A program made the position numbers and the translations under genes. Shown in pieces: positions 2,837 through 26,161 of a stretch of 44,286 nt of DNA (position 1 is the stretch's first letter; each line of letters begins with the position of its first letter). The DNA is from an uncultured Mailhella sp. Its GTDB lineage: Bacteria; Desulfobacterota; Desulfovibrionia; Desulfovibrionales; Desulfovibrionaceae. The stretch covers positions 1 to 44,286 of the forward strand of contig NZ_CANRLT010000013.1 of assembly GCF_947631555.1 (NCBI RefSeq), written 5' to 3'. Under the pieces are notes generated by a model. That model had not been told where the DNA came from, searched no databases, and saw only the letters and a list, made by a program, of their open reading frames with translations.

Positions 2837-5800
2837 TTAAATGTTCATAAGGTGACGCAGACGCTCAAAGAGGCTTATCTGCCGTTCTCTAGGCAACCTA
2901 CTAAACTCTTGCAGCAACCAGGCTTCTTTTTGCTGGACAAGATGTGCGTGAAGCTGACTGCGCAACTGAGACAGAACGGCACGATCCTGTTCTGCCAGAT
3001 AAGCAGGTTCCTCCTGCAGCTGTGCATAGAGTACCGCAGACTGTTCCGTTGACAGCTCAGAAGTGCGTTCACATTTATTGCGGGCCTCTGCCAGCCAGAG
3101 AGTACTGCGCTCCTTGCGCGTCTTCTCAAGGTCTGCCACGACCAGGTCATACAAGGCAGCCGCTTCAAGTCCCAGTTCCTTTTCCTCTATCTGAGCAGCA
3201 AGCTCGGCTTTAAAGTCCTCAAGACGTCTTCTTAGCATGGCGTCATCTAGCGAGTTGTCGTTACGCAAGTCCCTCCAGACAGAGAGCAGCCAATCCAGCA
3301 CATACTTCAGATCAGCGACATCGCGGGCATCCTGACGGCTGCAAATCTGCTCCAGTCGTGCAAGTTCCATCTGATGATTCTGGATATTCTCCATGTCCTC
3401 AAAGGAAGGATTGAGTAATTCACTCGCATGCCGTTCCAGTTTCTTGAGATGCTGTTCAACGGCCTTTTGATGCTCACTTAATTGTCCACGCAACTCTGGC
3501 AGACCTTCAATTGCCTTATTACGCGCAATAACAGCCAGGTTCTTTGCGTGTTCCTTCGCCATATCGCGTGTTTGACGCAAGCTGTCGATGGATTGATTGT
3601 TAAATGCCGTTTTACTTTCTTGCAGCCATGCTTCAATATTATGCATCGTTGTCCGATATTTTCCAATAATTTCTATATTTTTACAGGCTTTTTGCGTATA
3701 TTCCCGTAGTTTGTCAGCTTCGCTTTCAAGATGAATCACGAGAAGTTTTTCCCTGTACTTTTTCATCTGCTCCTTGAAAGTAGCAATGGCATCTAGCGTT
3801 GCGGCCCTGGGAGTGAGTGTTTCAAGCCACTCAGGGAATACCGCTGCAAATTTTTGACGCATCTGCCCAAAACGCTGCTCAAATTTGGGGCCATATTCCT
3901 GTGGCCAGCATTCGGGCGAGGATTCAATTATGGAAAGTAATTTCCCAAAGTTTGCCGTGCTGTAAAGATACAGTTCTACTTTTTTCTTTTTTTCAGCTTC
4001 TTCATACTGTCCTTCCGCTTTATCTTCCAGTTTTGAAAAATCGTGTACGGCTTGGCAGGCTTGTTTACTTTTCTGCTCAAGCGCATCGTATTGTTCCTGA
4101 TCTCCAACCTTTGTGATAGGACACTCTTTTTTCAGCTCCATTGCACGAGACGGAAAGTTACACAATTCCTCATAAGATATACAAGATCTCCAATCATCAA
4201 GAAATTCTGACCATTTATCTTCGCCGCCTTCAGCGAGGAAGAGCCTGGCAACTCCAAAAATTTGCGGAGTAATTTTTTTTCTGCTCTCCGGCAAAACGTT
4301 TTCTGTCCAGTCCCGGACAGAAAGCATATTTTCACCATTATTGACATGCAGAGTAGCATGACGAGCCGCCAGATAAACGCCAACCAGCAATAAGGCGGAT
4401 ATGTCATTCATGCCGAATGGCGGCCGCATCAACATGGCGTACATCTCGGAGACCGCTAGGCCTCCGCGGCAAGTATTGTCCCAACGACGGAAAATTCGCT
4501 GCAAGGGGGCCGGGTATTTTTGTACCGTGCCGGATTTAGAAAAGATATTCCAATCCTTTCTGAACAATGTAATGGCCCTATTCTTTTCCGCAGAATTCAT
4601 GGCTTGTATGTCTTCAAATGTCAGCCTGTTGTAGAACAGCCTGCGCGCAAAGGAGTAGGCCGTTGTAGGGCCGTTACCATGGGCCGTGGCAAAACCGTCC
4701 ATGGAGAACGGCAGAGCTTCCTTATAGACGGATTCAAACAAGGCTAGGCCGACAGATGACAATCGCTGCGGTAAGTTCCCCTGTAGCGGAGTAATCCAAT
4801 GGCGCTGCTTGATGAGCTGATGCACGATTTTTTCCGCATGTTTACGGAGAGATTCTTCGTGAGATGATACAAGATTGGCAAATTTTTCTCTTTCTGTTTT
4901 GCTCAAATTTTGCAAGATGTCATACTCAGCCAAAATAGTTCCAAGCTGATTATCCTCATCATGCAAAAGAACAATAAAGACGGTAACATTTTGTAAATTT
5001 TTCTGCTGAATTGCCATCTTCAGATCTTTGCGTATCTGATTCATGGCATCTTCAAGTACAATTTCATGCCCAGCGTAACAGAAAAGAATAGTACCCTTGG
5101 CTTCATCATGCGCTGTTTTCTGTGACCAAGTGGCAAGAATATCGCTGATCACAGGGCTTATAAAATCCATATTCGTTTTTCGGGGAGATAAACGCCACTC
5201 CCGCGTTTTTATAGAATGCTGTTCGCCAAAATCTGTTTCAATATCCTTTGCCAGCATATCGGTAAGTTTGTCTATCCCGCTAGCAAAAAGTCTGGCCTGT
5301 CTACGATCGTCATACTCATTCAGCCTGCGTTGACGCAAAAAGCTGATGAATTGCGTTTTAGGGACAGCATCTCCAAGAATATCAAAGTAGCATAGTGATT
5401 CGTCCCATTCAATAAGATTGAGTTCAAACTGTAAGTCATGAAGTTCTTTCTGAACAACATCAGGAACAAGACCACAAAGCAAGCCAAGCCCCTGGATAGC
5501 ATCATCCCGGCTTTCTGCCTTCATCATCAGTTTGGAGGCAATGACAATAGCCTGAAGAATCGCAATGGATGTCTCATTGAGACGCTCCCGGTGGCGGTTC
5601 AGAACAGATTCGAGAGCGCTGGCAATAGCGCCCTGATTGCCGCTTTTTTCAGAACTGATCAATTCTTCGCGCAAACTAGATGTCAACAACGAGATAGCGG
5701 GAATACCGATGCGCGGCAGAGTATCTACCGGTTTGCTAGCGAGGCTGGCGAACAGCTCCTTAAGCAGGGAAAGCGCGGAACGCCCCTGCAAAAAGCGACT

Positions 5801-7095
5801 TTCGGCCGCCAAAGAATAAATAAACCAGAGCGCAAAGGGCGAAAGAGGCCAGCACCCCAAGCAAATGACGCGGGCAAACAACTCCTGATCTTGCCATGAG
5901 GCAACGTTTTGGCTTGCCGGAAAAAAATGGCGTAAATAGTGCGCCGACTTTATAAGCGCTTCTATTTTATTTGAAAGATATTGATCGATAAATTTGTGAT
6001 CTGTCTTTTCAATGAGATTAGCGATGAGCGTTTCCAAATTTGTGGAAAGGTAAACTTTTTCCGCATTCTCATAGCGTGTAATGTAACGCTGCGCCTCGTT
6101 GCGATATTCCGCATTAAGCCGTTGCAGATAGGCTTTCAGCTCAAACTGAATAAAGCCGACAAAGCATACAAATTTACTGCCCCCTGTACAGCTTCAAACA
6201 ATTCCTGCAGGGCATTTGTTCCAGCAAAGTACGGTTTTCCGATAGCAAATTCCAAATACTTGCCGAACTCGTCAAACAGAATAACAATATTTTTATAAGG
6301 CTTGCCGTCACCGCAATACGTTTCTGCCAAAATCTGAAAAAGTTCCGGCAACGAGCCATTTTGACTGGCATCGAGAAGGAAGCCGTCTCTCTCCAGACAC
6401 TGCGCAACAGCCTTATAGGTGGCTTCGTCCTGTTCTTCCCGCAAGGCCGCAACAAGATGTTCAAGGGTCGCTTTACCCGCTTCCTGACAAATGTCATTGA
6501 TAACCTGCGGATTGAGCTTTTCAACCAGACTGGCGGCTCTGGCAAAGAGCGGCCGCACATTTTCAACTGGAGTAGTGTCCAGACCATCCGTGCGCAGGGC
6601 ATCGATGACACGCCGCACAATCTCCGGCAGCAAGGAAAATTCGCTCATGCCGTTAAGAGCAATGACGAGTGAGGACTTGCTCTGTTCATTGAGCAGAATA
6701 CGGCATTCCTGCCCTAGTTCGGCATCTGCGGCAGCAATACCTTCAAGAACAGCCCGTCCGGCGGCGGATTCCGGGGCGTGCAGAAGTTCCGCCAAAGCCA
6801 GCGCCAGATGAGATTTGCCCGTTCCATAACCAGCTACGGCCATTTTGAAAGGTTGCTCTCCCTTGCCGCAAGCCTGACTGACAATGCTGCAGGCAAAGGT
6901 AGCCGTATCGGTCAATCTGTGTTCATGATAGCCTTCCTGCTGCCGGACGGCGTGATAACGTGGCCCATGAAAAACAAAGGTTCTCGCAGCTTCTCGAGCC
7001 TTATCACGATCCCGGTAAAACCAGGAAATGTCCACAGCACCCTGAAAAAGTTTGTCATCACGAAATCGAATAATGTCACCAAGGCAAGTACTCAT
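2837..7095 (-). pseudogene. Second SspC-like large P-loop ATPase, split by a one-base frameshift
   Basis: Two open frames, 7095-6136 and 6037-2837, are halves of one ~1419-aa protein. The first has a Walker A motif (AGYGTGKSH, about residue 90) and a Walker B-like motif (VILFDEFGKYLEFA). It loses frame at a run of five C (plus strand, 6180-6184). Reading on in the next frame gives SKFVCFVGFIQFELKAYLQ, which joins the 1066-aa downstream part without interruption. One extra G in the minus-strand run would restore the frame. The downstream part is mostly helical with likely coiled coils (residues ~650-1000). Layout and motifs parallel the first SspC-like protein of the operon (19394-22759). BrxC/PglY-type ATPases share the general plan. 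The start follows GAGGG six bases upstream, in a 132-bp gap after the DUF4007 gene, the only real gap in the operon. Pseudogene, phase-variable gene and sequencing error all remain possible. Confidence 0.7.
6180..6184. other. C5/G5 tract at the frameshift point
   Basis: The homopolymer lies exactly where the two halves of the ATPase change frame. With six bases instead of five the minus-strand frame reads VQGGSKFV and continues without a stop. Confidence 0.6.
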
Positions 7096-7227
7096 GAAAA
7101 GCCCTCACACAGGACGTATCAGAGATATGTGCGTATTGTTTTTTCAAATAAAAAACAGGGTACGCTATTCTTCCTGAACAAAATTTGGCCGCAACAGATG
7201 CCATCATGACCGTAAAAAGCCGCTACA

Positions 7228-8067
7228 CTAAAGCATATCATCAAAAATGGTGCGCCATGCCTCATCAGGAGAACGGCGCAGGTCAACAAGCCAGGGCTGC
7301 ATATGCCTGTCTACGGTCAGCACGCCCAGATGTTCGGCTTCCGCAAGCATATCCGCAGCGGTAGAAGGATGCCAGCCGGTTGCCCTTTTCCAGCCGCAGG
7401 CGCGTTCCCAGTTGGTAACCGAAATATTACGCGCCCCGGGGAAAAAGTCTGCCAGCAACTGGGCCAGCCATGCGGCATAGCCACGTCGGCTTTCCATAGC
7501 AAGAGGAGCGGCAGCACGATGAATTTGCTCATCGTTTTCCGTCAGTACCCCGGCCCCCTTGAAGGCGGCCTCATCGGTATATGCGCCAATGACAGGCCCA
7601 ATGGGATTGCGCCCTTCCGCAGCATAAACGGTGCGCAGATGGTGTTCAAGCGTCTGACGGCTGAAATCCATGCCCAACGTTTCCATGCCTTCCACAAAGA
7701 CCTGATACCAGAGATCCGCGCCGGTACGAGGGTGGCAGAGCTGAAGATGCGCCAACCATTGCGTCACAGGACTAGAGAGGAACGGATCTTCAACCAGAAC
7801 AACCCGCCCGAAAGGCGTCAGCGAAAAAGTATAGACTGCATTTGTTTTTTGCGGACGCAACAGCCCCATCCCCGTGCAATAATCAATGGTCGGCTGCATT
7901 TTACCAGAGCTTGAACCGGTGGGAATACCCGTATGCTTGCTGATTTCCTCAAGCGAACCACTTTTTCCGGCGGCGGCATACCGCAACAGCGCAGAAAGGT
8001 AGCTGCGTTCAGGCTTGAATGTTCGATGGAAGTTACGTGCAAGGCGCGTATGCTGTTCAGTTGCCAA
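7228..8067 (-). CDS. Second DUF4007-type (SspB-like) protein
   Basis: This 279-aa product resembles the first gene of the operon: an N-terminal winged-helix-like region (SLEEISKHTGIPTGSSSGKM), then LTPFGRVVLVEDPFLSSPVTQWL, the part that matches DUF4007 best, and a GYAAWLAQLL helix parallel to GYAIWDYL in the 22762-23646 protein. I place the start at TTG 8067, because GGAGG sits about ten bases upstream inside the end of the preceding gene and the result is an 11-bp overlap, typical of translational coupling. A longer GTG start at 8136 would overlap by 80 bp. SspB proteins are nickases in single-strand PT systems; whether this diverged copy is active is unknown. It is followed by the second SspC-like ATPase, so a B-C pair is repeated. 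Confidence 0.65.
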   Translation of the reverse strand: MATEQHTRLARNFHRTFKPERSYLSALLRYAAAGKSGSLEEISKHTGIPTGSSSGKMQPTIDYCTGMGLLRPQKTNAVYTFSLTPFGRVVLVEDPFLSSPVTQWLAHLQLCHPRTGADLWYQVFVEGMETLGMDFSRQTLEHHLRTVYAAEGRNPIGPVIGAYTDEAAFKGAGVLTENDEQIHRAAAPLAMESRRGYAAWLAQLLADFFPGARNISVTNWERACGWKRATGWHPSTAADMLAEAEHLGVLTVDRHMQPWLVDLRRSPDEAWRTIFDDML

Positions 8068-11000
8068 AGCCGCGTTCCTCCATGCTGGCGATTTTGACGA
8101 AACGCACGGGCCGTTCCTGTGACGATACAGGGCCAACCAGGTAGCATTCTCCGCGCTTCAGTCGTGCGAGTTGTTCTTTCCACTCCGAAGCGGAAAAAGA
8201 AGAATCCACATCATGCAGTTGTTTGCCACACTCTGCCATTTCATTATCTGCCGGGCGAAAATACAGTTTGCAGGCGGCCTGATTCAAGGTACTCAGCGAC
8301 TGCTTGATACCAGAGAACGACTGCGTTGCCGCAATTAATCCCATGCCGAATTTGCGCCCTTCACGCAAGATTTTATCAACGGGCGAGCCGCTTTGCAGAC
8401 TAAGGTTCTGTATCTCATCCAAAACAACAATACTTGGATGCTCAGGACTACCGCTACGCTGGGCATGAAAGAAAAGATCCCAGAGAACAAACTCGATGAT
8501 TCCCGCCGCAAAAACTCCTGGGATAGAAGCAAGTTGAAAAACATGATTGCAGGCAGGCAACATATTGTAGAGCTTTTCCCAGCCTACATCATCACGAGGT
8601 TCTGTAAACGGATTTGTTCTGAGGAAACTTCGAATATGACTTTGCAGAGTCTCCAACGAAGTTTTATTATGATGCTCATCGACATGATAAGATTTCAGTA
8701 TATCTTCCACGTGCTGAAACGTTGTTTCCGGATACATTTCCAGGCTTTCAATAATAGCATCCTGCAGGATGTTAACCTGCTGTGTTCCGAGATTGAAAAT
8801 CTTTCTGAAAATATCCGTAATTCTGCCAGCAACAAGATATGGTGGTTCGTCCGCATGAATTTGCGGTATCTTCTGCCTGGTCAAAGGATTGATGGGGAGA
8901 GGCTTTGCCACAACAACATGTTGTTCACTTTCTGGAAAATACGGTTTGACTGGAGGCAAAATTTCTGTAGGCGTAAAGCTCTGGCTGTAATCCAGCACCA
9001 TGGTATTGAGCTGCTTTCGGGCCAGTTCTGCCAACAGGCATTGGATAGCATAGGTCTTGCCATTGCCGGAGCTGCCAAAGATGATGAGGTGACGATTAAC
9101 GGCATCTCTGAAACGCCAGTAAACAGGCTTCCCGCTTCTGTTAACGCCGAGCAGAATTTGCTCTGGGATACTTTTCGCCTCTGAAATGTCTGAAGGTGTC
9201 GGCGCAGGTTCGGGAGCGCCGGATTCTGATGTGGATACATAACGGGAGCTTTCATCGGGGGCTGTCGGGGACGTTTCTCCTGCCGCATTGGCACCTTCCC
9301 CCTGAAGGGCTACTGCACCGCCCGAACCATGCGCGCAGAAATTCGGATCCGTAACGCTGTCAGTTGCGCGATCTTCCTGTATTGGGTCGTCTGATAAACT
9401 GGCTGAGGCGGGTTCCAGAAATTCCGGCGAGAGATAGGTACGCATCCAGTCGGGTTGTTCCTCATCGCTTTCATCGACGCTGTCATCCGTTTCGTCCCCA
9501 AGCAGGGAAGCCACCACTTCAGAAAAATCGTCTTCTGAAGGTTCCGTGGACGGGAGAGGGTAAGCGTCAGGATAGCGATCTTCCTGTTCTGGGCACGAAT
9601 CCTGCTGCCGGGCCTCTTCCCAGATTTTCGAAGATGCTTCCTGCAAGGCCAGCTGAATTTGCAAGGGATAGCCAATGACACACTGGCGAGCGGGAATACC
9701 ATCAATGCTCCACCTGTCGGTCCATCGAGGTTCTGTACCGGCATCATCAGTCCAGTAGGTCAGCAGCAACGCTTCCCATTCAATGGAAAATTGCCCTTCG
9801 GTCAGCTGTTCCAGCAGAGTTGCAGGATCTTTGGAATGCAGCTCCGGTTCCACATACATGTTGCTGGTGATGACGCGGTGCAGCTGATGCCACCAGTAGC
9901 GGCGATCGGGTCGAGCGTCATCTAGTTCGTCCGCACCGAGCGGGCGAAACAGAGGCTCTAGTTGGCTCAGACCGCTGCGCAGCTGCTCATGGGCGTGCCA
10001 CACATAGGCATCGTTTGAGCACGCCAGTTTGCATTCTATGAGCAGGGCATGCAAATGCAGGCGGCCATCCCGCTCTACTCCCGTAAGCCAAAGCAAATCG
10101 GGGTGGCTGGCATCACGCGAGGGAAGCCAATGATGATAAGCGTCCAGAGAAATGATGGTGTCGCAAAGCGTATCAGGCACTTGCAAAAGGCGCCGGCTCA
10201 GAGAATAGGCCAGAAAATCATGAATGTAGGTATCTTGCAGGCTGGCCGCACGAATAAGCCCCATGCCGGCCAGTTTTTCCGCGTGCAGCAAATTTTCCGC
10301 CATAGCGCGGCAGGTAGCGGTATCAGGAGCGTTGTCGCCATAGAGGCTGGCCAGTCGCTGACCAATGTGAACGCACAAATCCTGACAGCTCAACTGTTCG
10401 GACGAAACAGTATAATTGGCTTCTCCGTGGCTGCCTACGCCGGAACCGAAGGCGATAATGTCCCGAACTATTCCAGCGGGCGCGGAATCACGAATGAGCG
10501 CCTCATCCATGGCTGGATCAATACAAATAACCCATTCAGCGGCCTTGTGCAAAAGGGCCAGGCTGTCTTTCCATTCATGAAAACTGCCATGGCTGATAAC
10601 CAGCGATGACGCCGAAGGAGGCCTTCGGTTCAGTGCAGCCAGCAGCTCGCTATGCAGCGATGTTGCAGGAAACTGACGCAAGCTGACAACACGCGACCGG
10701 GAGAGGTTTTGGCTCTCTCTGCGCGAGACACAATATTTTTTTTCAAGAATGGGGAATTTTAATTCTGTACTTGTAATGTCAAATTGAGCAATATCTTTAA
10801 AAATACATGATGTCATACTGACATCAAACAAATCATAAAGTAGGGCTATGTCCACATCTATTTTGCCTTGGCGCAGAAAATTTTCCATTTCCTTGCTGCT
10901 GCATACAATTTGATGCGCAACTGAGATGCGACAAAAACGATAACAGGAATTAGTCGTCAGACTGTCCTCTTCCCGTGCGGTACTCCAGCGCTCCTGCCAG

Positions 11001-13516: not shown

Positions 13517-15175
13517 CTAGGCCTCCAGACTTTCAGCGATGGGATTATGGACAAGGGAGCAGGCATCGGAAAGGTGTATCAGAAAATTTCCGTCTTCCAG
13601 CATATTGTGCAGCCAGGCATCACAACGGACAGAAAAGAGCGCCGACTGCCCGCTCAACCAGCGCTGCGCCTCTTCAAAGCCCTCTGCGTCAAAGACAAAG
13701 CCATGCCAGGCCCGCACGCGCCGCTTGAACGTATCCAGACTCAGATGTTTTTGTGCGGGCACAAGCGTTAAAACCAGCAAACGCAGAATTCGCGCTGACA
13801 AAACAAAGCGTTCGCCGCTGCCGGTACGGGGCACCATCAGCCCCAGATAATTTTTGGCAAGCGAAGCGAACAGACCCGCCGCGTATTTGCGGCTGACCAC
13901 ATCGCCCAGAAATTTCTTTTTTGCGGCTTCCAGATCTGTGTGAGCCCCCTTGTTTTTACCGGCGGGCTCATACGTGCAGTTGGGCAGCTGTGCCAGAATC
14001 AGCCGCTCCTGCATGGTGCGCAGGTATTTGCAGGCATGCTGCGAAACACTGCGCAAGGCAAAATTTGCCTCATCCAAAGCCGTAACGGGGATCAGGTAGC
14101 CGGGCCAAGGCAGGGGTTGCCTGGTCAGAAACGCTGTTCTGGCCAGTAATGTACGCAGAATTTGCAGGCCACAGGCGGTTTCAAGCAACGCAAGCCGCTC
14201 CATAATGTCAACATCTGCCCGCAGAATGTGCAATAATTCAACGGCAAACAGATAGCCTTCCTTCCAACTGTCGGCGGCGCACCAACCCATGGCTTGATAG
14301 CGCGGCTCCCCGTCCCGATCCGCATCCGTACTGAGGGCGGTTTCCTCTTCCAGCTCGCAAATGAGCGAGGCCAGATCGTCCAGCCCGGAATAGGAAAGCT
14401 GCATAGCGGCCAGCGCTTGTTCCAGAGCCAGACGCAGACCTTCGGGGTCAAGTTCCTCCGGACCAAGACCCAGCGCCGCATCTTTATTCCAGCGGACGAT
14501 TTCGTCCTGCTTTCTGCTCAGGGCAAGGCAGAGTTGGTAGTAAAGGACGTCTCCACCATGAGACATAAACGCATACTTATTATTGCTAAAAAACGGGAGC
14601 GCCTCATCCCAAGTAGATGCAGCTTTTCCCTTTGTTTCTTCCCAAATAGTTTCTGCTGTCAAAAGATGCGGACAAAGCGGCAGGAATTGCTGTGCGCACC
14701 AGGTACGGCCTTCCCCTGTGGAACGTAAACCAAGAAACAAGTTTTCCAAATCGCGCAGAATGGCGCTCTTGTCGGCGTCGGAGTCGGTACGCAAGCGCTC
14801 ACGGAGCCTTTTTTGCAGCTCATCAAAATGGTCACGGTGGGTTTTGTGGCGGGCATCTAGACGAGACGCACCTAAAAAAGCAAATAATTTCAAATTCAAA
14901 CGTGCCGAAGGCGCATACTCTAAACGGAGACCGCCAGACACATTCAATACCTCACGAGAGGGAAAACATCCCTCAATGGGAGAATATGGCTGTTGCGCAA
15001 GCCGCTTGGGAGAAAACAGAATAAGCAGCAATTCGTTGAGAAATTCCGGCAAACTCTGATCTGTAAAAAGACGTTTACCGAAAAAACGGAACGCGGGATT
15101 CTCTTTCCAATCATTAACACTAACAGAAGAAAAAAGAGAGGCGGCCGGGTAGAGATGGGGTTCAGTGTGTTCCAC
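13517..15175 (-). CDS. SspG/DptG-like restriction protein
   Basis: The 552-aa product has no motif that I can name with certainty. It is rich in Leu and charged residues and probably all-helical. The call rests mainly on position: it lies between the F and H genes, as DptG does in FGH modules. The start is GTG 15175, with GGAGGTG just upstream inside the last codons of the F gene, giving a 14-bp overlap and probable translational coupling. Known DptG proteins are somewhat shorter. The assignment should be checked by profile search. Confidence 0.55.
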   Translation of the reverse strand: MEHTEPHLYPAASLFSSVSVNDWKENPAFRFFGKRLFTDQSLPEFLNELLLILFSPKRLAQQPYSPIEGCFPSREVLNVSGGLRLEYAPSARLNLKLFAFLGASRLDARHKTHRDHFDELQKRLRERLRTDSDADKSAILRDLENLFLGLRSTGEGRTWCAQQFLPLCPHLLTAETIWEETKGKAASTWDEALPFFSNNKYAFMSHGGDVLYYQLCLALSRKQDEIVRWNKDAALGLGPEELDPEGLRLALEQALAAMQLSYSGLDDLASLICELEEETALSTDADRDGEPRYQAMGWCAADSWKEGYLFAVELLHILRADVDIMERLALLETACGLQILRTLLARTAFLTRQPLPWPGYLIPVTALDEANFALRSVSQHACKYLRTMQERLILAQLPNCTYEPAGKNKGAHTDLEAAKKKFLGDVVSRKYAAGLFASLAKNYLGLMVPRTGSGERFVLSARILRLLVLTLVPAQKHLSLDTFKRRVRAWHGFVFDAEGFEEAQRWLSGQSALFSVRCDAWLHNMLEDGNFLIHLSDACSLVHNPIAESLEA

Positions 15176-17432
15176 GAATCACCTCCAGCATAGTATCGTT
15201 TAATATGTAGTCATCCTGAATCAATTTATAATCGGAACAGTAACGCAGCAGACGTATGGGCTGCGCTCCCTCATCTTCCTTCATGCAGCGGAGAATCTGG
15301 GCCTTTAAGGTATCAAGTTGTTGGGCAAAGGTAGCTCGGGGCAAATCGCCTATCGCGCCCTCATAGCGGCGCAGCACATAATCTAGAAAGGGAACCGTCA
15401 GCTCTAGCGGGGTTATGCCCTGCAGATTGCGCCGCCCTTCCAGTAGCAGGGATGGGCTGCCGTCCGGGCGGTTCTGGAGCCGCAAATCAAAATTTTCCTG
15501 CCATGAAACCGAACAAAGCACGATTTGTACGCTCTGCCGTAAAAGAGGCGTAGGACGATTCAAGGTAATATACAAACTGTGCTGCCGGGTACTGGTTGGC
15601 AGATGTATGCCGGTAAAGTGTTCCTGCAGAACATGAAACAGGCAGGTCAGCAGGTGGCGTTTGACGCCAGTCTCCAATTGGGTCTGCCCGTGTAACCCGG
15701 CATACAGGACTACACCGGGCGACCGGAGAAATTCCTGCTGCAGCCGATTCTGCAAATCCTTCCCGCTAGGACGAGCGCAAAAATAAAGAAGACGTCTGGC
15801 TTGCAGGCGGGCTTCCGCACCGGCAGATGGGTCTGCCTGCGTGCTGCCCCGCCGCAACAGGCGCTGCAAAAACGGAACGACTTGCGAAGGAAGCCCCAGC
15901 ATCTTTGCATCAGTAGGCAACGCATGCCAGAGCTTCTTGTCCACACACGGTAAAGGGTATGCGCCCAACCGCTGTTCGTGTACGGCCCGAATGGCGGCCA
16001 TATCTCCCACCAGGCTGTCAGGTCTGGCGTGCGGCCCACCAAAAAAGAGATTGTACACATGCTGCCTTGAGCCAATATGGGGTTCAAGAATTTCTGCCCG
16101 GCACAAGCTTTGCTCATCCAAGCCGCCTGTCAGGCAATAGGCCAGATGTTCGCTCAGCTGCCGCATGGTCAGGCGAATTCCATAGGCCTGCAAACGTTTG
16201 TAGGCGAGAAACAGACGCTGGCGGGCCGGGCTGTTCGTATCCGCGAGTAACATCCGATTAAAATGAACGGGGCAGGCACTTTGATGGCGACAGGCAGAGC
16301 ATTGTGTCCATAGCTCCGGCTTCAGCATGTTGGAAAGGACGGTCTGCGCAAGAGGGAGATTATCACGCAAAGCCAGATTATAGATTTTGAACGGTCGCCC
16401 CCGAAAGGAAAAACTGTCATCCTGCTCTCTGCTCAGACTGCCAAGCAGTGAACTCTCCAGCTCCACATGCCGGGAAGCATCCTTTTCCTGCGACAGAAAA
16501 AATTCACGTAATGCGCCGGTATTGGAAACAAGCAAACTCCGCGTCTGACCATCGAGCAGATCCTTAAGCAGCTCTTCGTGCCGATGATGCTCCTGCTCAC
16601 TAAGGTCTTTGATCAGCAGAGCCTTATGACCATCTATGGTAAAATGCACACGGCTGTTCCCTAGTTCCGGGAGAGGCTGCTCAAAGGGAATGCCGCATAA
16701 TTTACGATAGACGGCAAAAGCCAGCGTTGTCTTGCCATCCCCGGCGTGCCCTGTAAGAATGATGCTGTGCGTGCCAGCTTTTAAATCTCTGACGAGCTCA
16801 TCTTCCAGAGGATGCGGCGCGACAACTCGGGCAAAGAGAGGATTCTGTGCCTGAAATTCTGCCAGCGCATTTTCATTTCCACCATGAATACGTTGCAACG
16901 TTGTCAAATAGCTTATAAAATTAGCACATTGTTTAGATAATGGAGATGGCACTGATGAAGTTACTTCTTTACTTTTTTCCATAATACTCATACATACATG
17001 TTTTATTTTCTCAGCAAGTTTTTTACGAAAATTTTTATTCTGGAAGTTATGATGCATACCTTCAGAAAGATATGCGTATTCAATCACCTCACGGATTCTT
17101 TTAAGTGTAAAACGTGAATTTTTATTTTTTATAATGTCATTATATATTTCATCTTTATCTTTTTTTATTTTTAAAAACCAAAATTTATTATTTACAAGAT
17201 AAAAGAATGGATATTCAATAGCGTTTTTAGGGAGAAAAGTTTCTCCAAAAAATCTCTCAGCTATATAGTTGAATATGTCTATTACTTCATCAATATTTAT
17301 TCTATTATCTCGATTTGGATTTACATTATAAAGATGAGTTACGGAAAGAAGTAGTATATATTTATGAGGATGAATAGACTTCACCTCATTCATCATATTT
17401 TTATCAAGAATCAAATCTAATTTGCTATTCAT
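15162..17432 (-). CDS. SspF/DptF-like P-loop protein with N-terminal sulfur-binding-domain-like extension
   Basis: The 756-aa product has two parts. Residues ~190-756 look like DptF: Walker A TGHAGDGKTT (about residue 227) and a four-cysteine cluster CSACRHQSACP (about 378). Residues 1-150 are an addition: HPHKYILLLSV, then a helix, IEYPFFYLVNNKFWFL, and RIREVIEYAYLSEG followed by NFRKKLAEKI. That succession (HK-LLL, YPF-x2-L-x3-FW, EYAYL, FR-x2-L) is the pattern I know from the N-terminal DNA-sulfur-recognition domain of ScoMcrA-type HNH nucleases. Residues 1-178 are encoded by markedly AT-richer DNA than the rest. The gene starts one base after the cysteine desulfurase stop and overlaps the G gene by 14 bp. 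The P-loop call is firm, DptF-like is likely, and the SBD-like call is moderate. Confidence 0.7.
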   Translation of the reverse strand: MNSKLDLILDKNMMNEVKSIHPHKYILLLSVTHLYNVNPNRDNRINIDEVIDIFNYIAERFFGETFLPKNAIEYPFFYLVNNKFWFLKIKKDKDEIYNDIIKNKNSRFTLKRIREVIEYAYLSEGMHHNFQNKNFRKKLAEKIKHVCMSIMEKSKEVTSSVPSPLSKQCANFISYLTTLQRIHGGNENALAEFQAQNPLFARVVAPHPLEDELVRDLKAGTHSIILTGHAGDGKTTLAFAVYRKLCGIPFEQPLPELGNSRVHFTIDGHKALLIKDLSEQEHHRHEELLKDLLDGQTRSLLVSNTGALREFFLSQEKDASRHVELESSLLGSLSREQDDSFSFRGRPFKIYNLALRDNLPLAQTVLSNMLKPELWTQCSACRHQSACPVHFNRMLLADTNSPARQRLFLAYKRLQAYGIRLTMRQLSEHLAYCLTGGLDEQSLCRAEILEPHIGSRQHVYNLFFGGPHARPDSLVGDMAAIRAVHEQRLGAYPLPCVDKKLWHALPTDAKMLGLPSQVVPFLQRLLRRGSTQADPSAGAEARLQARRLLYFCARPSGKDLQNRLQQEFLRSPGVVLYAGLHGQTQLETGVKRHLLTCLFHVLQEHFTGIHLPTSTRQHSLYITLNRPTPLLRQSVQIVLCSVSWQENFDLRLQNRPDGSPSLLLEGRRNLQGITPLELTVPFLDYVLRRYEGAIGDLPRATFAQQLDTLKAQILRCMKEDEGAQPIRLLRYCSDYKLIQDDYILNDTMLEVIRGTH

Positions 17433-17433
17433 C

Positions 17434-18555
17434 CTAAACGACCTCTTCTATTGAGCTTATCAATAACTCTATATCATGCTTTGTAACATTCTCAAGAAGA
17501 GTAAATCGTAAAAATTTGTTTTTTAATTTTTTTTCTATCAACACACTATCAACAACATGCGATAGACCTATGACACCAGATTTACAGGCAGAGCCATCTG
17601 AAAACAGTACATCCTTACACCGCAAAAAGAGCATATCTGCATCAATACCTTCAATAAGAAGGCCAGAGGTATTAGGGAGCCTATCTACGTTTTTTCCCAA
17701 CACACTAATAGAATTATTAAATTTTCTTCCAAGAGAATCTTCTAACAAATCCCGTAAAGTAGCAACATTTTCCAAGACATTTGCTGGGCGTTGCTGCAGC
17801 CTGTCGCAGGCAGCACCAAAACCAACAATGCCCGGCACATTCAGCGTGCCGGGGCGCAGGCCGCCCTCCTGCCCTCCGCCGCGCAGTGGGCGCGGCCAGG
17901 GCCAGCGCAGCGGGCCGCCCTTGACAAAAAGCGCACCGATGCCCTTGGGGCCATAAATTTTATGGGCGCTGAATGAAGCGAAGTCACATTCCCAGTCCAG
18001 CATGGAAACAGGCATTTTCCCCAATGCCTGCACCGCATCCACATGAAAGAACGCCCCAACCTCATGTGCAAGCCGGGAAATTTGAAGAACAGGCTGAATA
18101 GTACCGATTTCGTTGTTGGCGGCCTGAACGGAAACCAGTGCGGTTTCCGGCGTTATGGCTCGAGCTGCGGCATCTAGGTCAACAACGCCATCCGGCGTAA
18201 CCGGCAAACGGGTAACCTCGAAACCCTGCTCCTCCAGCAGGGCGGCGCTTTCCAGCACAGACTTGTGTTCTATGGCGCTGACAACAACGTGGCGCCGTGT
18301 ACGGGGGGCCAGCAGCAACCCCCAAAAAACAAGATTGGTGCTTTCTGTTGCGCCAGAGGTAAAGATTATTTCCTGCGGACGGGCATCCAGACATTCGGCC
18401 ACAGAACGTCGTGCCGCGGCTACAGCCTGTGCGGCCACACGCCCGGCGCAGTGCGGGCTGGACGCATTGGCGAAAGCATCACTCCAATAAGGGCGCATGG
18501 CCTCCTGCACTTCTGGTGCACAGGGGGTTGTTGCATTGGCGTCAAAATACAGCAT
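17434..18555 (-). CDS. sspA: Cysteine desulfurase, SspA/DndA/IscS-like
   Basis: This PLP enzyme would take sulfur from L-cysteine as a persulfide and pass it to the PT machinery. Visible features are the N-terminal YFDANATTP, the AHK Schiff-base lysine (about residue 200) and the persulfide cysteine in SDGSACKSG (about residue 323). The length (373 aa) is normal. The start is ATG 18555, preceded by AGGAGG; an upstream in-frame extension to 18633 would overlap the previous gene and does not fit the family. It follows the SspD-like gene by 14 bp and precedes the F gene by one base, so sulfur supply is built into the operon. The last third, including the catalytic cysteine, is AT-rich, unlike the first two thirds. 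A housekeeping IscS/NifS is excluded mainly by context. Confidence 0.85.
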   Translation of the reverse strand: MLYFDANATTPCAPEVQEAMRPYWSDAFANASSPHCAGRVAAQAVAAARRSVAECLDARPQEIIFTSGATESTNLVFWGLLLAPRTRRHVVVSAIEHKSVLESAALLEEQGFEVTRLPVTPDGVVDLDAAARAITPETALVSVQAANNEIGTIQPVLQISRLAHEVGAFFHVDAVQALGKMPVSMLDWECDFASFSAHKIYGPKGIGALFVKGGPLRWPWPRPLRGGGQEGGLRPGTLNVPGIVGFGAACDRLQQRPANVLENVATLRDLLEDSLGRKFNNSISVLGKNVDRLPNTSGLLIEGIDADMLFLRCKDVLFSDGSACKSGVIGLSHVVDSVLIEKKLKNKFLRFTLLENVTKHDIELLISSIEEVV

Positions 18556-18569
18556 GCCCTTCCTCCTGT

Positions 18570-19397
18570 TCAGATATGGCAGACAAGGCAGGCCAGTTCC
18601 TGCCCCTCCGCGTCTCCGTCCCACATGTCGCACAGGCGTTGATTGCTCGCAAATTTCTGCGCTTCGCGCCGCATGCGCTTTTCGTATTCTTTTTTAATGG
18701 CTGCCACGCGTTCGGGCCTGCACAGCTCCTCCAGACTTTCGTCCTGCATCCAGGTAAAGCGTTCGCCGGTATCCGGATCTATTTTTTCATAAGATTGGGC
18801 CAGCTCGAACAGATCTTTATGGTTCTCCAGCAAGCCCACCCATTCGCGCTTTTGCTGGAAGAAGCAAAAATAGCAGCCGGATCGTGAGCGCCATTGATAA
18901 TAGCTAGGCAATCCCAAACCGCAATCTTCCAGAATGCGATAGATGTCGCTTTTGATAAGCCCGTCTTCCGCAAAGGGAAACACCGTTGTCACGCCGGGCT
19001 TGCCTGAAATATAGCCCTGCCGGTGAGGTTCATCAGCACGTATCCCCACATAGCTGACAACAGGATCATCTCCGATAAATTTTTCATAGGGCTTGAGCTT
19101 GAGCATTCGCGTACACCAACGAGTGTTGGCATCAGGCAGCACACCGGAAAACATCTTCAAATAAAAATCGAATCCCTCTGCTGCTGATATGGTATGTATT
19201 TTCATATCAAGAAATGATTCTAATTTTTTTAAATAATCATAAGTTTCTTCCAGCTCTACTCCTGTATCACAAAACACATATTCAAGATTTGGAACTTTAT
19301 CCCGAAGATACACAGCCATGGCGGAACTGTCCTTGCCGCCAGAAAGGGCAAGAATATGCCGTCTGTCTGTCTTTTTCGCCCATTCTCGCCAATTCAT
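18570..19397 (-). CDS. sspD: PAPS-reductase/ATP-pyrophosphatase family protein, SspD/DndC-like
   Basis: The 275-aa protein belongs to the adenine-nucleotide alpha-hydrolase (PP-loop) family. The PP-loop SGGKDS is at residues 19-24. Cysteines that could hold an Fe-S cluster or carry sulfur are in RWCTR (about 95), GCYFC (about 174 and 177) and CLVC (270, 273). In PT systems this protein is thought to adenylate the DNA backbone and insert sulfur delivered by the cysteine desulfurase. The start ATG overlaps the stop of the SspC-like gene (ATGA, 4 bp), and the desulfurase gene follows 14 bp later. The region 19140-19300 is AT-rich. A sulfate-assimilation CysH is unlikely given the neighbours. Confidence 0.85.
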   Translation of the reverse strand: MNWREWAKKTDRRHILALSGGKDSSAMAVYLRDKVPNLEYVFCDTGVELEETYDYLKKLESFLDMKIHTISAAEGFDFYLKMFSGVLPDANTRWCTRMLKLKPYEKFIGDDPVVSYVGIRADEPHRQGYISGKPGVTTVFPFAEDGLIKSDIYRILEDCGLGLPSYYQWRSRSGCYFCFFQQKREWVGLLENHKDLFELAQSYEKIDPDTGERFTWMQDESLEELCRPERVAAIKKEYEKRMRREAQKFASNQRLCDMWDGDAEGQELACLVCHI

Positions 19398-22300
19398 TGA
19401 TTATTCCCCTTATCAACACCGCCTTCTACTTCCCGGAGCAGTTCACGTAATGCTTCCGCAAGGACACGGGGCGGGGCTTGTTTTTGTACCTCTTGCAGCT
19501 TCGTGGCCAGCAGCGTGCGAATATGTTCCTTGCTTTTTTGTTCTTCGCTGTTGAGAAAAGCGCTTCCAAAGTCTTCCCAGGCGCGCCGAAATTGCTCTCC
19601 TGTACCCAGGGCCGCATCGTTGAAAGCGACAACGTCAGCATCGTTCCATCGCTCAAAAGCCCGGCCATAGACGATGCCCAGAATGCCTTCCAGACGGCTG
19701 TCTTCATTGCTTTCCGTGCGGCAGGCACGTTCCAGGACAGGAGCAAGCCCCCCCCGGCGCACCCTCCTGGCCAGAAAGGCCGCGCGTTCCACAAAGCCAT
19801 GCCAACCGAAATCTCCGCCAGGCAGGCCGCAAGCGCACAAAAGCTCATCACGGCATCGGGCACGCGTCCGAGGGGCAAAGTCCATCAATTCCCCCATGCT
19901 TTCGCGCATGGCAGCGGCGAATTTTTCCGCCTCGCCCTCCGTTGTGCCCACCAACAGAGACGGCAGACCGAAGGCTTCGGGCAATTCCTCAAACAACAGG
20001 CGTTCGGGAGAGCGGGCGGAACGAAAGCAGTCCCGCAGAGCCTTGCCGCGCGTAGATGCGAGCTTTGCCGTGTGCTGCGTGATGGAGGGAAGCTGCCGAA
20101 TGGCCGCATACAGGCGGGCCACCACCGCGGGTACGGTTGCTTCCACCCGCAAACCCGCGGCATAGCGTTCAACAATGGCCAGGCGTTCCCCTTTCAGCCG
20201 TACGCCGGAAATACCGAACAAATCTGGCCGGCGCTGCATTAATTCCACGCTGGCCTCGTCCAGCTGGGGCAAAAAGGAGCCTTCACGGTACAAAAACAAC
20301 TCGGAACGGCGGCAAAGGTAAAAGGCCAGCAGCAGAATGGGCAAGATTCCTTCCGGAACACCGTAAGGGGGGGCTATTAGCTTGCGGAAAAGCCCCGGCA
20401 AGGGGACGCATTCTCCGGCGGCAGTATAAATTTCCCGCTCCAGCGCCTGCCAGACCGCAAACAGGTCTGAATTTGGGTCAGGCTCGCACAAGCGCCAATG
20501 CTCGTTATCTGCCTGCTGATGCAGGTCGGTTCCGCGCAAAACGGATTCATACATACTGCGTTCCGGCGGAAAGCCCTCAATACCTAGAGTACGTTGCCCG
20601 GCATGTGTCAGCATGCGCTTAAGCAGCATATTGCGGGCCGCCGTAGCCGCCGAAGAGAGAGCAGGCCGGGCGACCAGTTCATTTTTGATGCGAGGAGCAT
20701 GAGGATACAAGGTATCGCACACCAAGCTCAGCAGACGGGTTACATCAACGGGGCGCGTCACGACCTGCTGACAACCGTTCCAGAACCAGCGGCAGGCATT
20801 GCCCCGGGGCGCCGGGCGCGGATCCAGCAACAGATCGACATTTTGGCGGATACGGCGCTCGCAGTCGACCAGCAACGTGCCGTATTCCCTCAACGCGCGC
20901 CGGTCGCCGCGCAGCTCCGGGGTGTGCTTCGCCACCCAGCGCAGACAAGCAAGCTCAATAGCCGGTTGACGCAGCATGTCGAGCTGTTGTGGAAAGGCTA
21001 TGACCAGAGATGGGTCTTTCCGGGTCGCTTGCAGGGCATCCGCTTCAAGCCGGGCCTGATCACTCATGGGCAGGAGAACAACCACGTGTCCGGCTTCGCA
21101 GGATGCCCGTGCGTCCTTGCGGGGAGCAAGGCCTGTGACAGAGGCGGTATATTCCAAATCAAAAAAACGATATGCGCCGCTTTGCAGGCAATGCCTGCGG
21201 GCCACCAGCGGCCGTGTGGAAACATGTTCCCGTACCAGCTCTACAAAGGCCGACCCCTCATAGCGCAACTGTTTTCGGGCTTTTTGCAGCAGGGATTCCA
21301 TATCTATGGAACCGCCTTCCCATAAACGAAAACTCTGATCCAGCTGCCGGAAGGTCAGCAACTCCTGCCGTCGCAAATCCTGAAGGGTTTCCGGCACATC
21401 CCGGCTTTGAGCCAGTACCGCGGAGAGGATACGTTTTGTGGCTTTCAGGGGTGTGCCAGGACCAAGAACATTGAGAACCCCCACCGCTCGAAGGATTCGA
21501 GCCTGTAAAGGCACCAGTGTCTTGCCGCCATCCTCCAGCGTTTCCAGCAAAACCCGGGCAACAGGGCGTTGCATGAGGGTAGCCGTCATGTTGGTCAGCA
21601 GATAGTCGGCAATATTGTGCAAGCGCACAAATCCGTTATCCACAGCTGAATCGCGGCGGCAATGCTCCTGAAAACCGTGCGGCTCCTGACTGGCAAGGTA
21701 CGAAAATAGTGAGCGCTCATTCTGGGCAAGACGCCGAAACAGCAGCGGCAGCACCAGCACCACCGAAGGATGCAGCGGCCAGGCATGCTGACAAATATGG
21801 ATAAATTCGGCCGAAGTCATGCCCGGGGGCAATTCCGCGCCTGCGTCAAGCAAATTTTGTGCTTCCCCCATGATTACGTCCAGCAGAGAACATGGTAATG
21901 GGCAGGAATAGCACAGCACCTGCCCCAGCGTATTCAGGTCGGAGGCAAGCTGTTCATTGAAGGGCAGCGACTCAAAACGCTCCTGCACCTTGGCCCACTC
22001 ATGGCGCAGAGTGGTGTTGCTCAGTTCCGTATAACCATCAAAGTGCTGATGCTGTACCGTCAGGAACAGCATAGGAGTGTTTGTAGCCCGCTTGGCATAT
22101 TCGGCCAGCATCTGAAACAGATAGACATCACCGCCAACTTTATCCTGCAGTGCGTATTCCAGACTTTTTCCTGCCTCGTCCACAATCAGCAGCATCCCGC
22201 CGCGTTTGCGCTTCTCTGCCAAACGCCGCACCGCATCCACCTGCTCCAGCACAGCGGCGCTGTCACGCCATCCCGCCTGTTGCAGCAGCCTTTCCAGATG

Positions 22301-22759
22301 TTGCTCCAGGCTTTGGCGTTCATCATCTTCCGGCAATGTTTTCAATGCCGTTTGCAATCCCTCAAGAATAATTTGTCCGATGGGACTGCGGCGCGCCGTC
22401 AGCGGTACGCAAAGCCAGGGGCGAACCGCTTCGCACAGTTCAGCAAAGCGTTGGGCAAGTTCGGGAGAATTTTGACAAAGTTCGGTGTAAGCCCGATTTT
22501 TTTTGTGCGCGCCTTCACTGAACAGGGCGTTCACAAACAGGGCAAAAGTTGACTTCCCCGCGCCGTATGGTCCGAAAATCATGAAGCTGCGCTCGCCCTG
22601 ATCATTTTCCAGGTTATCCAGCAGACGGTTCAAAGCATGCGCGACAAGAGGCGTAACAAGTATGTCGTCCAGAGCGTGAATATCGTGCCTGTCCGCAGAA
22701 AGATTGACGGCACGGCGGTAGCGGGTGCGTACGGAAACAAGATCAGAAAGGACTGGCAT
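19394..22759 (-). CDS. sspC: SspC-like large ATPase
   Basis: The 1121-aa protein has Walker A FGPYGAGKS (residues 62-70) and a Walker B-like motif MLLIVDEAGKSLEY (about 190). The remaining ~900 residues have no named motif and are mostly helical. In single-strand PT systems SspC is the ATPase acting with the nickase SspB and with SspD to process the modification site; this is inferred from its place between the DUF4007 and SspD-like genes. It starts two bases after the DUF4007 stop and overlaps SspD by 4 bp, so the three are almost surely co-translated. It has the same architecture as the frameshifted ATPase at the end of the operon. A BrxC/PglY relative is the main alternative, but no PglX, PglZ or BrxL gene is present. 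Confidence 0.7.
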   Translation of the reverse strand: MPVLSDLVSVRTRYRRAVNLSADRHDIHALDDILVTPLVAHALNRLLDNLENDQGERSFMIFGPYGAGKSTFALFVNALFSEGAHKKNRAYTELCQNSPELAQRFAELCEAVRPWLCVPLTARRSPIGQIILEGLQTALKTLPEDDERQSLEQHLERLLQQAGWRDSAAVLEQVDAVRRLAEKRKRGGMLLIVDEAGKSLEYALQDKVGGDVYLFQMLAEYAKRATNTPMLFLTVQHQHFDGYTELSNTTLRHEWAKVQERFESLPFNEQLASDLNTLGQVLCYSCPLPCSLLDVIMGEAQNLLDAGAELPPGMTSAEFIHICQHAWPLHPSVVLVLPLLFRRLAQNERSLFSYLASQEPHGFQEHCRRDSAVDNGFVRLHNIADYLLTNMTATLMQRPVARVLLETLEDGGKTLVPLQARILRAVGVLNVLGPGTPLKATKRILSAVLAQSRDVPETLQDLRRQELLTFRQLDQSFRLWEGGSIDMESLLQKARKQLRYEGSAFVELVREHVSTRPLVARRHCLQSGAYRFFDLEYTASVTGLAPRKDARASCEAGHVVVLLPMSDQARLEADALQATRKDPSLVIAFPQQLDMLRQPAIELACLRWVAKHTPELRGDRRALREYGTLLVDCERRIRQNVDLLLDPRPAPRGNACRWFWNGCQQVVTRPVDVTRLLSLVCDTLYPHAPRIKNELVARPALSSAATAARNMLLKRMLTHAGQRTLGIEGFPPERSMYESVLRGTDLHQQADNEHWRLCEPDPNSDLFAVWQALEREIYTAAGECVPLPGLFRKLIAPPYGVPEGILPILLLAFYLCRRSELFLYREGSFLPQLDEASVELMQRRPDLFGISGVRLKGERLAIVERYAAGLRVEATVPAVVARLYAAIRQLPSITQHTAKLASTRGKALRDCFRSARSPERLLFEELPEAFGLPSLLVGTTEGEAEKFAAAMRESMGELMDFAPRTRARCRDELLCACGLPGGDFGWHGFVERAAFLARRVRRGGLAPVLERACRTESNEDSRLEGILGIVYGRAFERWNDADVVAFNDAALGTGEQFRRAWEDFGSAFLNSEEQKSKEHIRTLLATKLQEVQKQAPPRVLAEALRELLREVEGGVDKGNNQ

Positions 22760-22761
22760 GG

Positions 22762-23646
22762 CTACTCCATGTCTGTATAATAAGCGCGCAGCAAATCCTC
22801 ACCACAGGGCAAGGTGCAAAGGATCGTCTCAATGCCTTCGGAAGCTGTCAGATTAAAACAGTCTCCCCAACGGGGGGACTGATGCAGCTGCATAACCGCT
22901 TCTACAAGGCTGTTTTCATCCAGCATAAAAATTTGTCCCGGTGCATAATCCGCATACATCAATTCGCTCAGGCGCAGGCCGTGACGGTCGTTGCTCCGCA
23001 AATAGTCCCAGATGGCATACCCGATGATTTCCGGAGGCAGCCCGCTCTTGGGCCCAATGGAAAAACGCAGCATGGAGCTTCCTTCCAGCAGGGAAAGCAA
23101 TCCCAGCTCCTGAAACGGGCAGGCATAAGACATTTCCAGCACCCGTTTTTTCCCGGCATTTTTTAACGGGGCGTACATCTTGATACAGCACTCTATATCC
23201 CGCTCCAGCGTTGGTATAGATGTCGCCTTGCCTTGACTTTGACTGTCATGCTGGCGCAAAAGCTCCAGCCAGTCATCGCAGTTAAATTCCGGCTTGTGCA
23301 TCTCACCAAACAGAAGCGTTGCCGCAGTCATAAATTGCTGCTGACTGCACATTTTCCAGTGTAGCAACCAAAGAGACGCATCATCTTCAAGACAGGGATC
23401 CCAACCATTTTGAGGCTCAAGCAACTCTTCCCCAAAGGATGTGACGCCATGTTCTTCCACCAGCCCAAAAGCATCACACCAATACTTGATGCTTTCGACC
23501 ATATTTTTTCCCACACCAAGATACGTAAGAGCATCGGGATCAGAAAATTGTCTGCCGCCCCTGATGTGCTGGTAGCCTTTTTCCAGCCAGCCATAACGAA
23601 ATGAAAAGGTCTGATGCCCGGAAAATCGGGGACGGCGTGACGTCAT
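22762..23646 (-). CDS. sspB: DUF4007 protein, SspB-like nickase candidate
   Basis: The first gene of the operon encodes 294 aa. It begins with the DUF4007 signature FSGHQTFSFRYGWLEKGY, then a winged-helix-like segment (YLGVGKNMVESIKYWCDAFGL), a typical NGWDPCLEDDASLWLLHW stretch and a C-terminal GYAIWDYL helix. DUF4007 proteins occur in PT gene clusters; SspB of single-strand PT systems is a DNA nickase, and I assign this by family memory and context. The ATG follows AAGGAG by nine bases, and a good promoter lies about 70 bp upstream. The catalytic residues are not identifiable by eye. Confidence 0.75.
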   Translation of the reverse strand: MTSRRPRFSGHQTFSFRYGWLEKGYQHIRGGRQFSDPDALTYLGVGKNMVESIKYWCDAFGLVEEHGVTSFGEELLEPQNGWDPCLEDDASLWLLHWKMCSQQQFMTAATLLFGEMHKPEFNCDDWLELLRQHDSQSQGKATSIPTLERDIECCIKMYAPLKNAGKKRVLEMSYACPFQELGLLSLLEGSSMLRFSIGPKSGLPPEIIGYAIWDYLRSNDRHGLRLSELMYADYAPGQIFMLDENSLVEAVMQLHQSPRWGDCFNLTASEGIETILCTLPCGEDLLRAYYTDME

Positions 23647-25631: not shown

Positions 25632-26090
25632 TTACTTGCGGCCCGTAAACGGGCTTCCTGAGTACGGGATACTCAACTGCTCTCCCAGTTTATCATCGTC
25701 CAACTGGTGTCGGATGTATTCAGCTATTCGGGTCTTATTCTTACCAACCGTGTCTACATAATACCCCCGACACCAGAATTCACGATTGCGATATTTGAAT
25801 TTCAGTTCTCCAAACTGTTCATAGATCATCAGACTGCTTTTTCCTTTCAAATATCCAACGAAACTTGATACGCTTAGCTTTGGGGGGATCTCGACAAGCA
25901 TATGGATATGATCAGGACAACATTCTGCTTCAATAATCTGTACGCCTTTCCATTCACACAATTTTCGCAGTATTTCTCCTATAGCTCTTTTCTTCTCGCC
26001 ATAGAAAACTTGTCTGCGATACTTCGGCGCAAATACGATGTGATACTTGCAGTTCCACTTCGTATGCGATAACTTCTTCGTGTCACTCAT
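25632..26090 (-). CDS. tnpA: IS200-type Y1 transposase TnpA
   Basis: The 152-aa HUH-type Y1 transposase has the His-hydrophobic-His motif in CCPDHIHMLVEIPP and the conserved KYHIVFAPKYRRQVF start. The likely catalytic tyrosine is in the YYVDTVGKN segment. Length and sequence look intact, so the element may be active. It would cut and rejoin single-stranded DNA at the end hairpins. The start is ATG 26090, with GGAGG upstream; a longer frame exists but runs through the 5' hairpin. Confidence 0.9.
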   Translation of the reverse strand: MSDTKKLSHTKWNCKYHIVFAPKYRRQVFYGEKKRAIGEILRKLCEWKGVQIIEAECCPDHIHMLVEIPPKLSVSSFVGYLKGKSSLMIYEQFGELKFKYRNREFWCRGYYVDTVGKNKTRIAEYIRHQLDDDKLGEQLSIPYSGSPFTGRK

Positions 26091-26096
26091 CGTGAC

Positions 26097-26161
26097 CTCC
26101 TTTTGATTTGCTTCTGATGCAGTTGTCAGACCGCACCTCTTTCTTAGCAAATCAAAAGGAG
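26097..26161 (-). promoter_or_regulatory. 5' leader stem-loop that hides the tnpA ribosome-binding site
   Basis: CTCCTTTTGATTTGC (26097-26111) pairs perfectly with GCAAATCAAAAGGAG (26147-26161), a 15-bp stem with a 35-nt loop. In the minus-strand transcript the AGGAG of the tnpA ribosome-binding site lies in the 3' arm. IS200 elements are known to repress TnpA translation with such a structure. Confidence 0.75.

Follow-up and report, generated by a model that had tools for sequence, protein, structure and literature searches.

The stretch of DNA analyzed here, contig NZ_CANRLT010000013.1 of an uncultured Mailhella sp. (RefSeq assembly GCF_947631555.1; 44,286 nucleotides, hereafter the window), carries on its minus strand a predicted anti-phage operon in which an SspABCD-type phosphorothioate (PT) modification module is followed by a five-gene cassette, F-G-H-B2-C2, that we propose acts as the restriction arm of the same system. 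An earlier note on this sequence had described a nine-gene operon made of an SspBCD-A modification module and an FGH restriction module, and profile searches (Pfam, PADLOC) bear out both modules; the tight packing of the minus-strand genes that it described agrees with the coordinates of the open reading frames (ORFs). The nine genes are all present, the ninth (C2) being split by a frameshift and not one open frame. The earlier note had overlooked three features: a sulfur-binding domain in F, the interruption of C2, and the insertion sequence (IS) upstream of the operon. The features, with lengths in amino acids (aa), are as follows.

23646 to 2837, minus strand: the whole operon, ten ORFs making up nine genes
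22762 to 23646, minus strand: sspB1, DUF4007/SspB-type DNA-binding protein of the modification module
19394 to 22759, minus strand: sspC1, BrxC/ORC-Cdc6-type AAA+ ATPase of the modification module
18570 to 19397, minus strand: sspD, PP-loop (PAPS-reductase-type) sulfurtransferase
within 17434 to 18633, minus strand: sspA, cysteine desulfurase
15162 to 17432, minus strand: F, SspF-type P-loop NTPase with an N-terminal DNA sulfur-binding domain
16986 to 17432, minus strand: sulfur-binding domain of F (residues 1-149), predicted PT reader
13517 to 15175, minus strand: G, SspG-related protein
8057 to 13516, minus strand: H, large putative effector with a PD-(D/E)XK-like motif and a C-terminal HerA-type motor
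7228 to 8067, minus strand (ORF open from 8136): B2, a second, diverged protein of predicted SspB fold (279 aa), assigned to the restriction cassette
6136 to 7095, minus strand: N-terminal fragment of C2 with the AAA+ domain, 319 aa
2837 to 6193, minus strand (first start codon at 6037): C-terminal part of C2 in the -1 phase, 1066 aa
23758 to 24580, plus strand: IS5-like insertion upstream of sspB1, with 18-bp inverted ends and a transposase domain

The modification arm is complete, with SspB, SspC, SspD, and a cysteine desulfurase all identified by PADLOC. The sspB1 product matches DUF4007 (Pfam, E = 1.6e-70), the PADLOC SspB profile (2e-73), and the SspB structure 6juf (PDB, 6.4e-34); SspB is reported to be a nickase. 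The sspC1 product, with a Walker A motif (GPYGAGKS) at residue 63, matches SspC at 1.9e-273 and BrxC at 2.1e-185 (PADLOC), and the sspD product matches SspD (PADLOC, 8e-110) and PAPS_reduct (7.6e-14), with DndC reached only at 3.6e-5. The sspA product matches SspA (PADLOC, 7.1e-121) and Aminotran_5 (7.4e-72); because the profile match begins at residue 29, the true start probably lies ∼27 codons inside position 18633.

Downstream of this module, F matches the PADLOC SspF profile over residues 209-497 (1.3e-30), with a Walker A motif (GHAGDGKT) at residue 228. A Pfam search of its N-terminus gave no useful match, and it was a profile search of the PDB that revealed the sulfur-binding domain: a profile of residues 1-149 built from the window F and 15 relatives (A5) matches SBDHga1 (PDB: 8h0l) at 2.8e-37 and the ScoMcrA sulfur-binding domain (PDB: 5zmo) at 3.6e-5, and the window F sequence on its own matches 8h0l at 4.8e-5. 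In ScoMcrA, four residues make up the sulfur cavity: H116, R117 (replaced by Lys in most homologues), Y164, and P165 (PMC6224610). The equivalent positions in the window F are H23, K24, Y74, and P75; in the 16-row alignment, His is conserved in 15/16 rows and Lys and Pro in 16/16, while the Tyr varies, as it does in known homologues. By our count, 29 of 36 complete F proteins have the domain, which we predict to read PT. In several relatives, NERD and paired kinase domains follow or replace it; such F proteins, in which NERD and two kinase domains (one of them probably inactive) precede the P-loop core, recall PglW of type 2 BREX and were seen at L140:956-5539, L130:7812-11855, L117, L120, L121, L125, L135, G327, G379, and G484.

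G matches SspG (PADLOC, 4e-8) over residues 435-545 only, and is 34%-41% identical along its length to the G proteins of relatives. In H, the best Pfam match is DUF87/HerA (8.6e-9), with FtsK_SpoIIIE below threshold, and PADLOC places DndH on the motor (residues 1446-1738, 5.4e-46) and SspH on the middle of the protein (1.2e-17). Across 58 full-length H proteins, the HerA-type P-loop ATPase is complete (Walker A at 1481-1488, Walker B at ∼1698-1705), and D1140, E1161-C-K1163, and Q1178 are conserved in a PD-(D/E)XK-like pattern that makes H a putative nuclease of this superfamily.

The last two genes, which follow H, resemble sspB and sspC. The ORF of B2 as listed opens with TTG at 8136; the likelier start is the TTG at 8067, immediately after GGAGGAACG, from which B2 would be 279 aa long, a length shared with its homologues, and would overlap H by 11 bp. 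B2 matches DUF4007 (Pfam) at 1e-7 and, by profile, B1 at E = 9.9e-13. An AlphaFold2 model (pLDDT 92) superimposes on SspB (PDB: 6juf) with Z = 20.9 over 270 residues (root-mean-square deviation 3.6), which suggests that B2 has the SspB fold. The motifs conserved in B1, RxGWLxKG (R17/W20/K23) and LGVGKNMV (GVGxNM), are absent from B2, which carries PERxYI and TGIPTGxSSGK in their place. C2 begins at 7095, after a gap of 132 bp from the end of B2 at 7228; its N-terminal fragment matches SspC (PADLOC, 5.9e-11), aligns with the intact C2 of relatives, and retains a Walker A (AGYGTGKS) and a Walker B motif (ILFDEFG), both upstream of the break. Over the operon as a whole, the family assignments are thus strong for SspB, SspC, SspD, SspA, and SspF, weak for SspG and SspH, and weak for DUF4007 in B2.

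The earlier note took B2-C2 for a duplicated B-C pair appended to the operon, a description that does not hold. In trees (quick method), B1 and B2, and likewise C1 and C2, form fully separate clades (SH-aLRT 100). Where all eight genes occur together (27 genomes), the pairwise distances of B2/C2 correlate with those of F/G/H at 0.88 (Spearman) and with those of B1/C1/D at 0.45, against baselines of 0.89 for FGH among themselves and 0.42 for FGH versus B1/C1/D; since distances between related genomes are not independent, these are descriptive figures. Trees and distances together rule out a local duplication of B1-C1. This co-divergence with FGH, and the recurrence of F-G-H-B2-C2 as a unit described below, place B2-C2 in the restriction arm: by sequence comparison, the pair is a component of the cutter and no spare copy of the tagging genes. 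A plasmid search with B2 returned no match.

The N-terminus of C2, used to scan 84,980 species genomes, yielded 136 relatives, 80 of which were kept. The F-G-H-B2-C2 cassette is conserved in ∼75 of these 80 loci, in at least 12 phyla, and the genes stand in this order wherever the sequence permits. B2 is recognizable upstream of C2 in 76/80 loci, and of the 71 that hold both genes, 67 have H directly adjoining B2 or overlapping it; at L067, L071, and L086 (drafts), B2 is unrecognizable between H and C2, and an antisense ORF there may be a broken B2. According to record titles, hosts include Thermodesulfobacteriota, Verrucomicrobiota, Lentisphaerota, Acidobacteriota, Cloacimonadota, Chloroflexota, Bacillota, Bacteroidota, Atribacterota, Spirochaetota, Armatimonadota, Sumerlaeota, Planctomycetota, and Pseudomonadota. 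Where wider stretches were compared, B1-C1-D, often with an SspA-sized ORF, lies directly before F in most of ∼35 genomes, and in the remainder the BCD module is downstream, convergent, or divergent; the neighborhood comparison that the earlier note had called for therefore shows a fixed cassette around which the BCD module moves. The complete order B1-C1-D-(A)-F-G-H-B2-C2 occurs in unrelated phyla, and because it is conserved in unrelated genomes, the arrangement is not a chance one.

The cassette is also linked to PT modification by genome content. A strong SspD (E < 1e-60) is found in 36/45 cassette genomes, by coordinates usually no more than a few kb away from the cassette. In a sample of 390 genomes from the phylum of the window, 12 have SspD (E = 1e-50), and all five genomes with a strong C2 lie among these 12 (hypergeometric p ∼1e-8, by our own arithmetic). 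Variants of the modification arm occur among the relatives. At L011:2996-4191 (G402), sspC1 is split by an insertion with two ORFs on the minus strand, 270 and 108 aa long and thus IS3-like in size, and the restriction cassette is intact, a state that should harm the host if PT were the only protection. In L058 (∼14400-20900, a Bacillota metagenome-assembled genome) and L133 (Ruminococcus), the cassette is accompanied by B1, C1, and a 556-580-aa SspD variant, which is possibly BrxP-like and would make for a different modification arm.

PT is known to shield DNA from canonical SspFGH experimentally: SspFGH damages DNA that lacks PT and is toxic without it (PMC8092258). By homology to that system, we infer a two-arm restriction-modification locus in which SspABCD marks DNA with PT and F-G-H-B2-C2 restricts unmarked DNA, a reading to which we give a probability of roughly two in three. 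SspB1-C1-D-A would place single-strand PT marks on self DNA, and the SspB-fold DNA-binding protein B2 would pair with the BrxC/ORC-type ATPase C2 as a DNA scanner or loader dedicated to F-G-H. The sulfur-binding domain of F would then check the DNA for PT, which would act as a "do not cut" signal: where PT is detected, the restriction complex would be held inactive; where it is not, the HerA motor of H would translocate along the DNA and its PD-(D/E)XK center would cut or nick it.

Several observations weigh against this account. The sulfur-binding domain is lacking in 7/36 complete F proteins, so it is not the sole PT reader. Canonical SspFGH works without B2-C2 (PMC8092258; the loci checked here agree), and the pair may therefore be regulatory. 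A Foldseek search of the PDB with the predicted structure of the H nuclease segment found no significant match, which leaves the conserved D...ExK...Q pattern as the basis of that assignment. Five of the 45 cassette genomes have no SspD and two more have trace matches only; DndC as a substitute modifier is ruled out, none being found in these seven genomes, so the coupling to PT may not be universal, though many of the genomes are drafts. Finally, C2 is broken in the copy at hand.

This break consists of a 319-aa ORF (7095-6136) and a 1066-aa ORF (6037-2837, open back to 6193) whose frames overlap at 6193-6136 and differ by -1, that is, by a single-base phase change. The two halves jointly cover the continuous 1425-1449-aa C2 of four relatives, the C-terminal part aligning to residues ∼355-1425 of the intact protein; since the relatives have one frame, two genuine genes are ruled out. 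The break is either a mutation or an error in the 154-contig draft, causes that sequence alone cannot separate. Upstream, the IS5-like element, with 18-bp terminal inverted repeats and a DUF4096 IS4/5 transposase (1.1e-25), ends 112 bp before sspB1. It occupies the region in which the earlier note had placed a single promoter, and a sigma-70 scan upstream of sspB found no minus-strand site, so that this claim is not confirmed. An IS200-like Y1 transposase also lies upstream of the operon (25632-26150), and downstream of C2, at 2089-2640, reading of the sequence shows a small ORF that resembles accessory proteins of plasmid mobilization, and the beginning of a serine resolvase gene, which suggest the border of a mobile element.

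Activity of this particular copy is thus doubtful given the C2 break and the upstream IS, with the proviso that the break may be a draft error. It is quite possible, if somewhat short of an even chance, that the restriction arm of this genome is in decay, with the C2 frame lost, the promoter severed by the IS5-like element, and at most a modification remnant left. The frame break in an otherwise conserved pair of C2 parts and the position of the IS, in a region with no sigma-70-like site, speak for decay; every other gene, however, is open along its full length, the end of an IS can supply a promoter, a single-base phase change could be a draft error, and C2 appears split in L044, L057, and L062 as well. 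Decay would concern the state of this copy and is compatible with two-arm restriction-modification in the family.

For the family, the main rival is restriction activated by PT, in which F would sense host PT and turn the nuclease on against incoming DNA, as with PT-stimulated SspE. The position of the sulfur-binding domain, N-terminal to the NTPase, suits such a switch, ScoMcrA-type sulfur-binding domains license the cutting of PT-DNA (PMC6224610), and SspE is stimulated by PT (PMC8092258). We nevertheless consider it unlikely, as it is DNA lacking PT that the homologous SspFGH and DndFGH damage, with toxicity when PT is absent. Still less probable is a role for B2-C2 as a second pair for modification specificity, acting together with SspD-A to set PT at another motif: SspB and SspC are modification proteins, and B2 and C2 resemble them in predicted fold and sequence, yet the pair co-diverges with FGH and not with B1/C1/D, is placed after H, and lacks the RxGWLxKG and LGVGKNMV motifs in B2. 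That C2 is made by programmed -1 frameshifting is very improbable, for although an A AAT TTG heptamer lies in the right phase within the overlap (in 6163-6193) and the shifted product would align gaplessly with relatives, the probability that a heptamer of this kind arises in 19 codons is about 7% (our own estimate), the folding downstream of it is unremarkable (z = -1.2), and C2 of the relatives is encoded in one frame; it is probably a coincidence.

Returning to two-arm restriction-modification, we lean slightly toward regarding the system as a distinct PT class, in which each arm would have its own scanning pair of SspB/BrxA and SspC/BrxC type, one to set the mark and the other to serve the nuclease-translocase, and the sulfur-binding reader would be built into F, and which would supply one of the missing restriction partners of SspBCD. 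Wang et al. (2021) found neither SspE nor SspFGH near ∼84% of 2,678 sspBCD loci and asked if there are restriction partners yet to be discovered (PMC8092258). F-G-H-B2-C2 is a candidate partner for such "orphan" SspBCD, carried by 5 of the 12 SspD genomes in the phylum sample. The candidate physical PT reader in F makes self/non-self discrimination by FGH testable, and with two DUF4007/ORC-ATPase pairs in parallel, what such pairs do in BREX-like systems can be dissected by gene deletion. What makes the locus interesting is less a duplication than a conserved restriction module. The earlier note knew of no such arrangement, and our search of the openly accessible literature likewise found no description of F-G-H with a DUF4007/BrxC-like pair beside SspBCD, the nearest accounts, in their accessible parts, being PMC10853773 and a 2026 survey of BREX (PMC12839542); novelty of the cassette is therefore provisional.

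Among known systems, BREX-related capture (BRC) and HerA/Orc-Cdc6 capture also combine a HerA motor with DUF4007 and a BrxC/ORC-type ATPase (PMC12839542, PMC10853773); the window operon differs in having no PglZ, DUF6079, or TGT and in its link to PT modification and F/G. With type 4 BREX it has SspB-, SspC-, and SspD-like components in common (PMC12839542), whereas profile searches of the ten window ORFs found neither PglZ nor BrxL. DndFGH (DptFGH) has the motor closest to that of the window H (DndH, PADLOC), but at E = 0.01 the window F and G match neither DndF nor DndG, matching SspF and SspG profiles instead, and the partner of DndFGH is DndBCDE where that of the window is SspBCD. The accessible parts of the account by Rakesh et al. 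(2024; PMC10853773) give DndFGH no DUF4007/BrxC-like pair; they do describe DndF with fused winged helix-turn-helix, NERD, and paired kinase domains, fusions that match the F variants found here, so relatives of the window F have already been seen.

The closest comparison is SspABCD-SspFGH of the Vibrio anguillarum FF-93 type, which likewise has SspBCD(A) beside FGH and whose F, G, and H are distantly homologous to those of the window. We checked seven canonical loci, plasmid and chromosomal (Sinorhizobium, Agrobacterium, Sphingomonas, Polaromonas, Pseudanabaena, and two gammaproteobacteria). B2-C2 is present in 0/7, which rules out that canonical SspFGH also carries the pair, whereas in loci of the window type it follows H nearly always. 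Canonical SspF has no sulfur-binding domain and the window-type F usually does; on an Agrobacterium plasmid, canonical SspH is directly followed by a separate protein of 489 aa (L151:19143-20612) that matches the sulfur-binding domain at 6e-8, so that canonical systems may use a stand-alone PT reader. Canonical SspH, also beside Ssp modification genes, has an FtsK/SpoIIIE motor (FtsK_SpoIIIE, 5e-34), in contrast to the HerA-type motor of the window H, and the PADLOC SspF, SspG, and SspH profiles score 105, 31, and 61 bits in the window (partial matches; 1.3e-30, 4e-8, and 1.2e-17) versus 783, 726, and 2433 in Sinorhizobium. On these profile matches, the restriction module of the window is a HerA-motor branch that is related to both SspFGH and DndFGH yet is neither.

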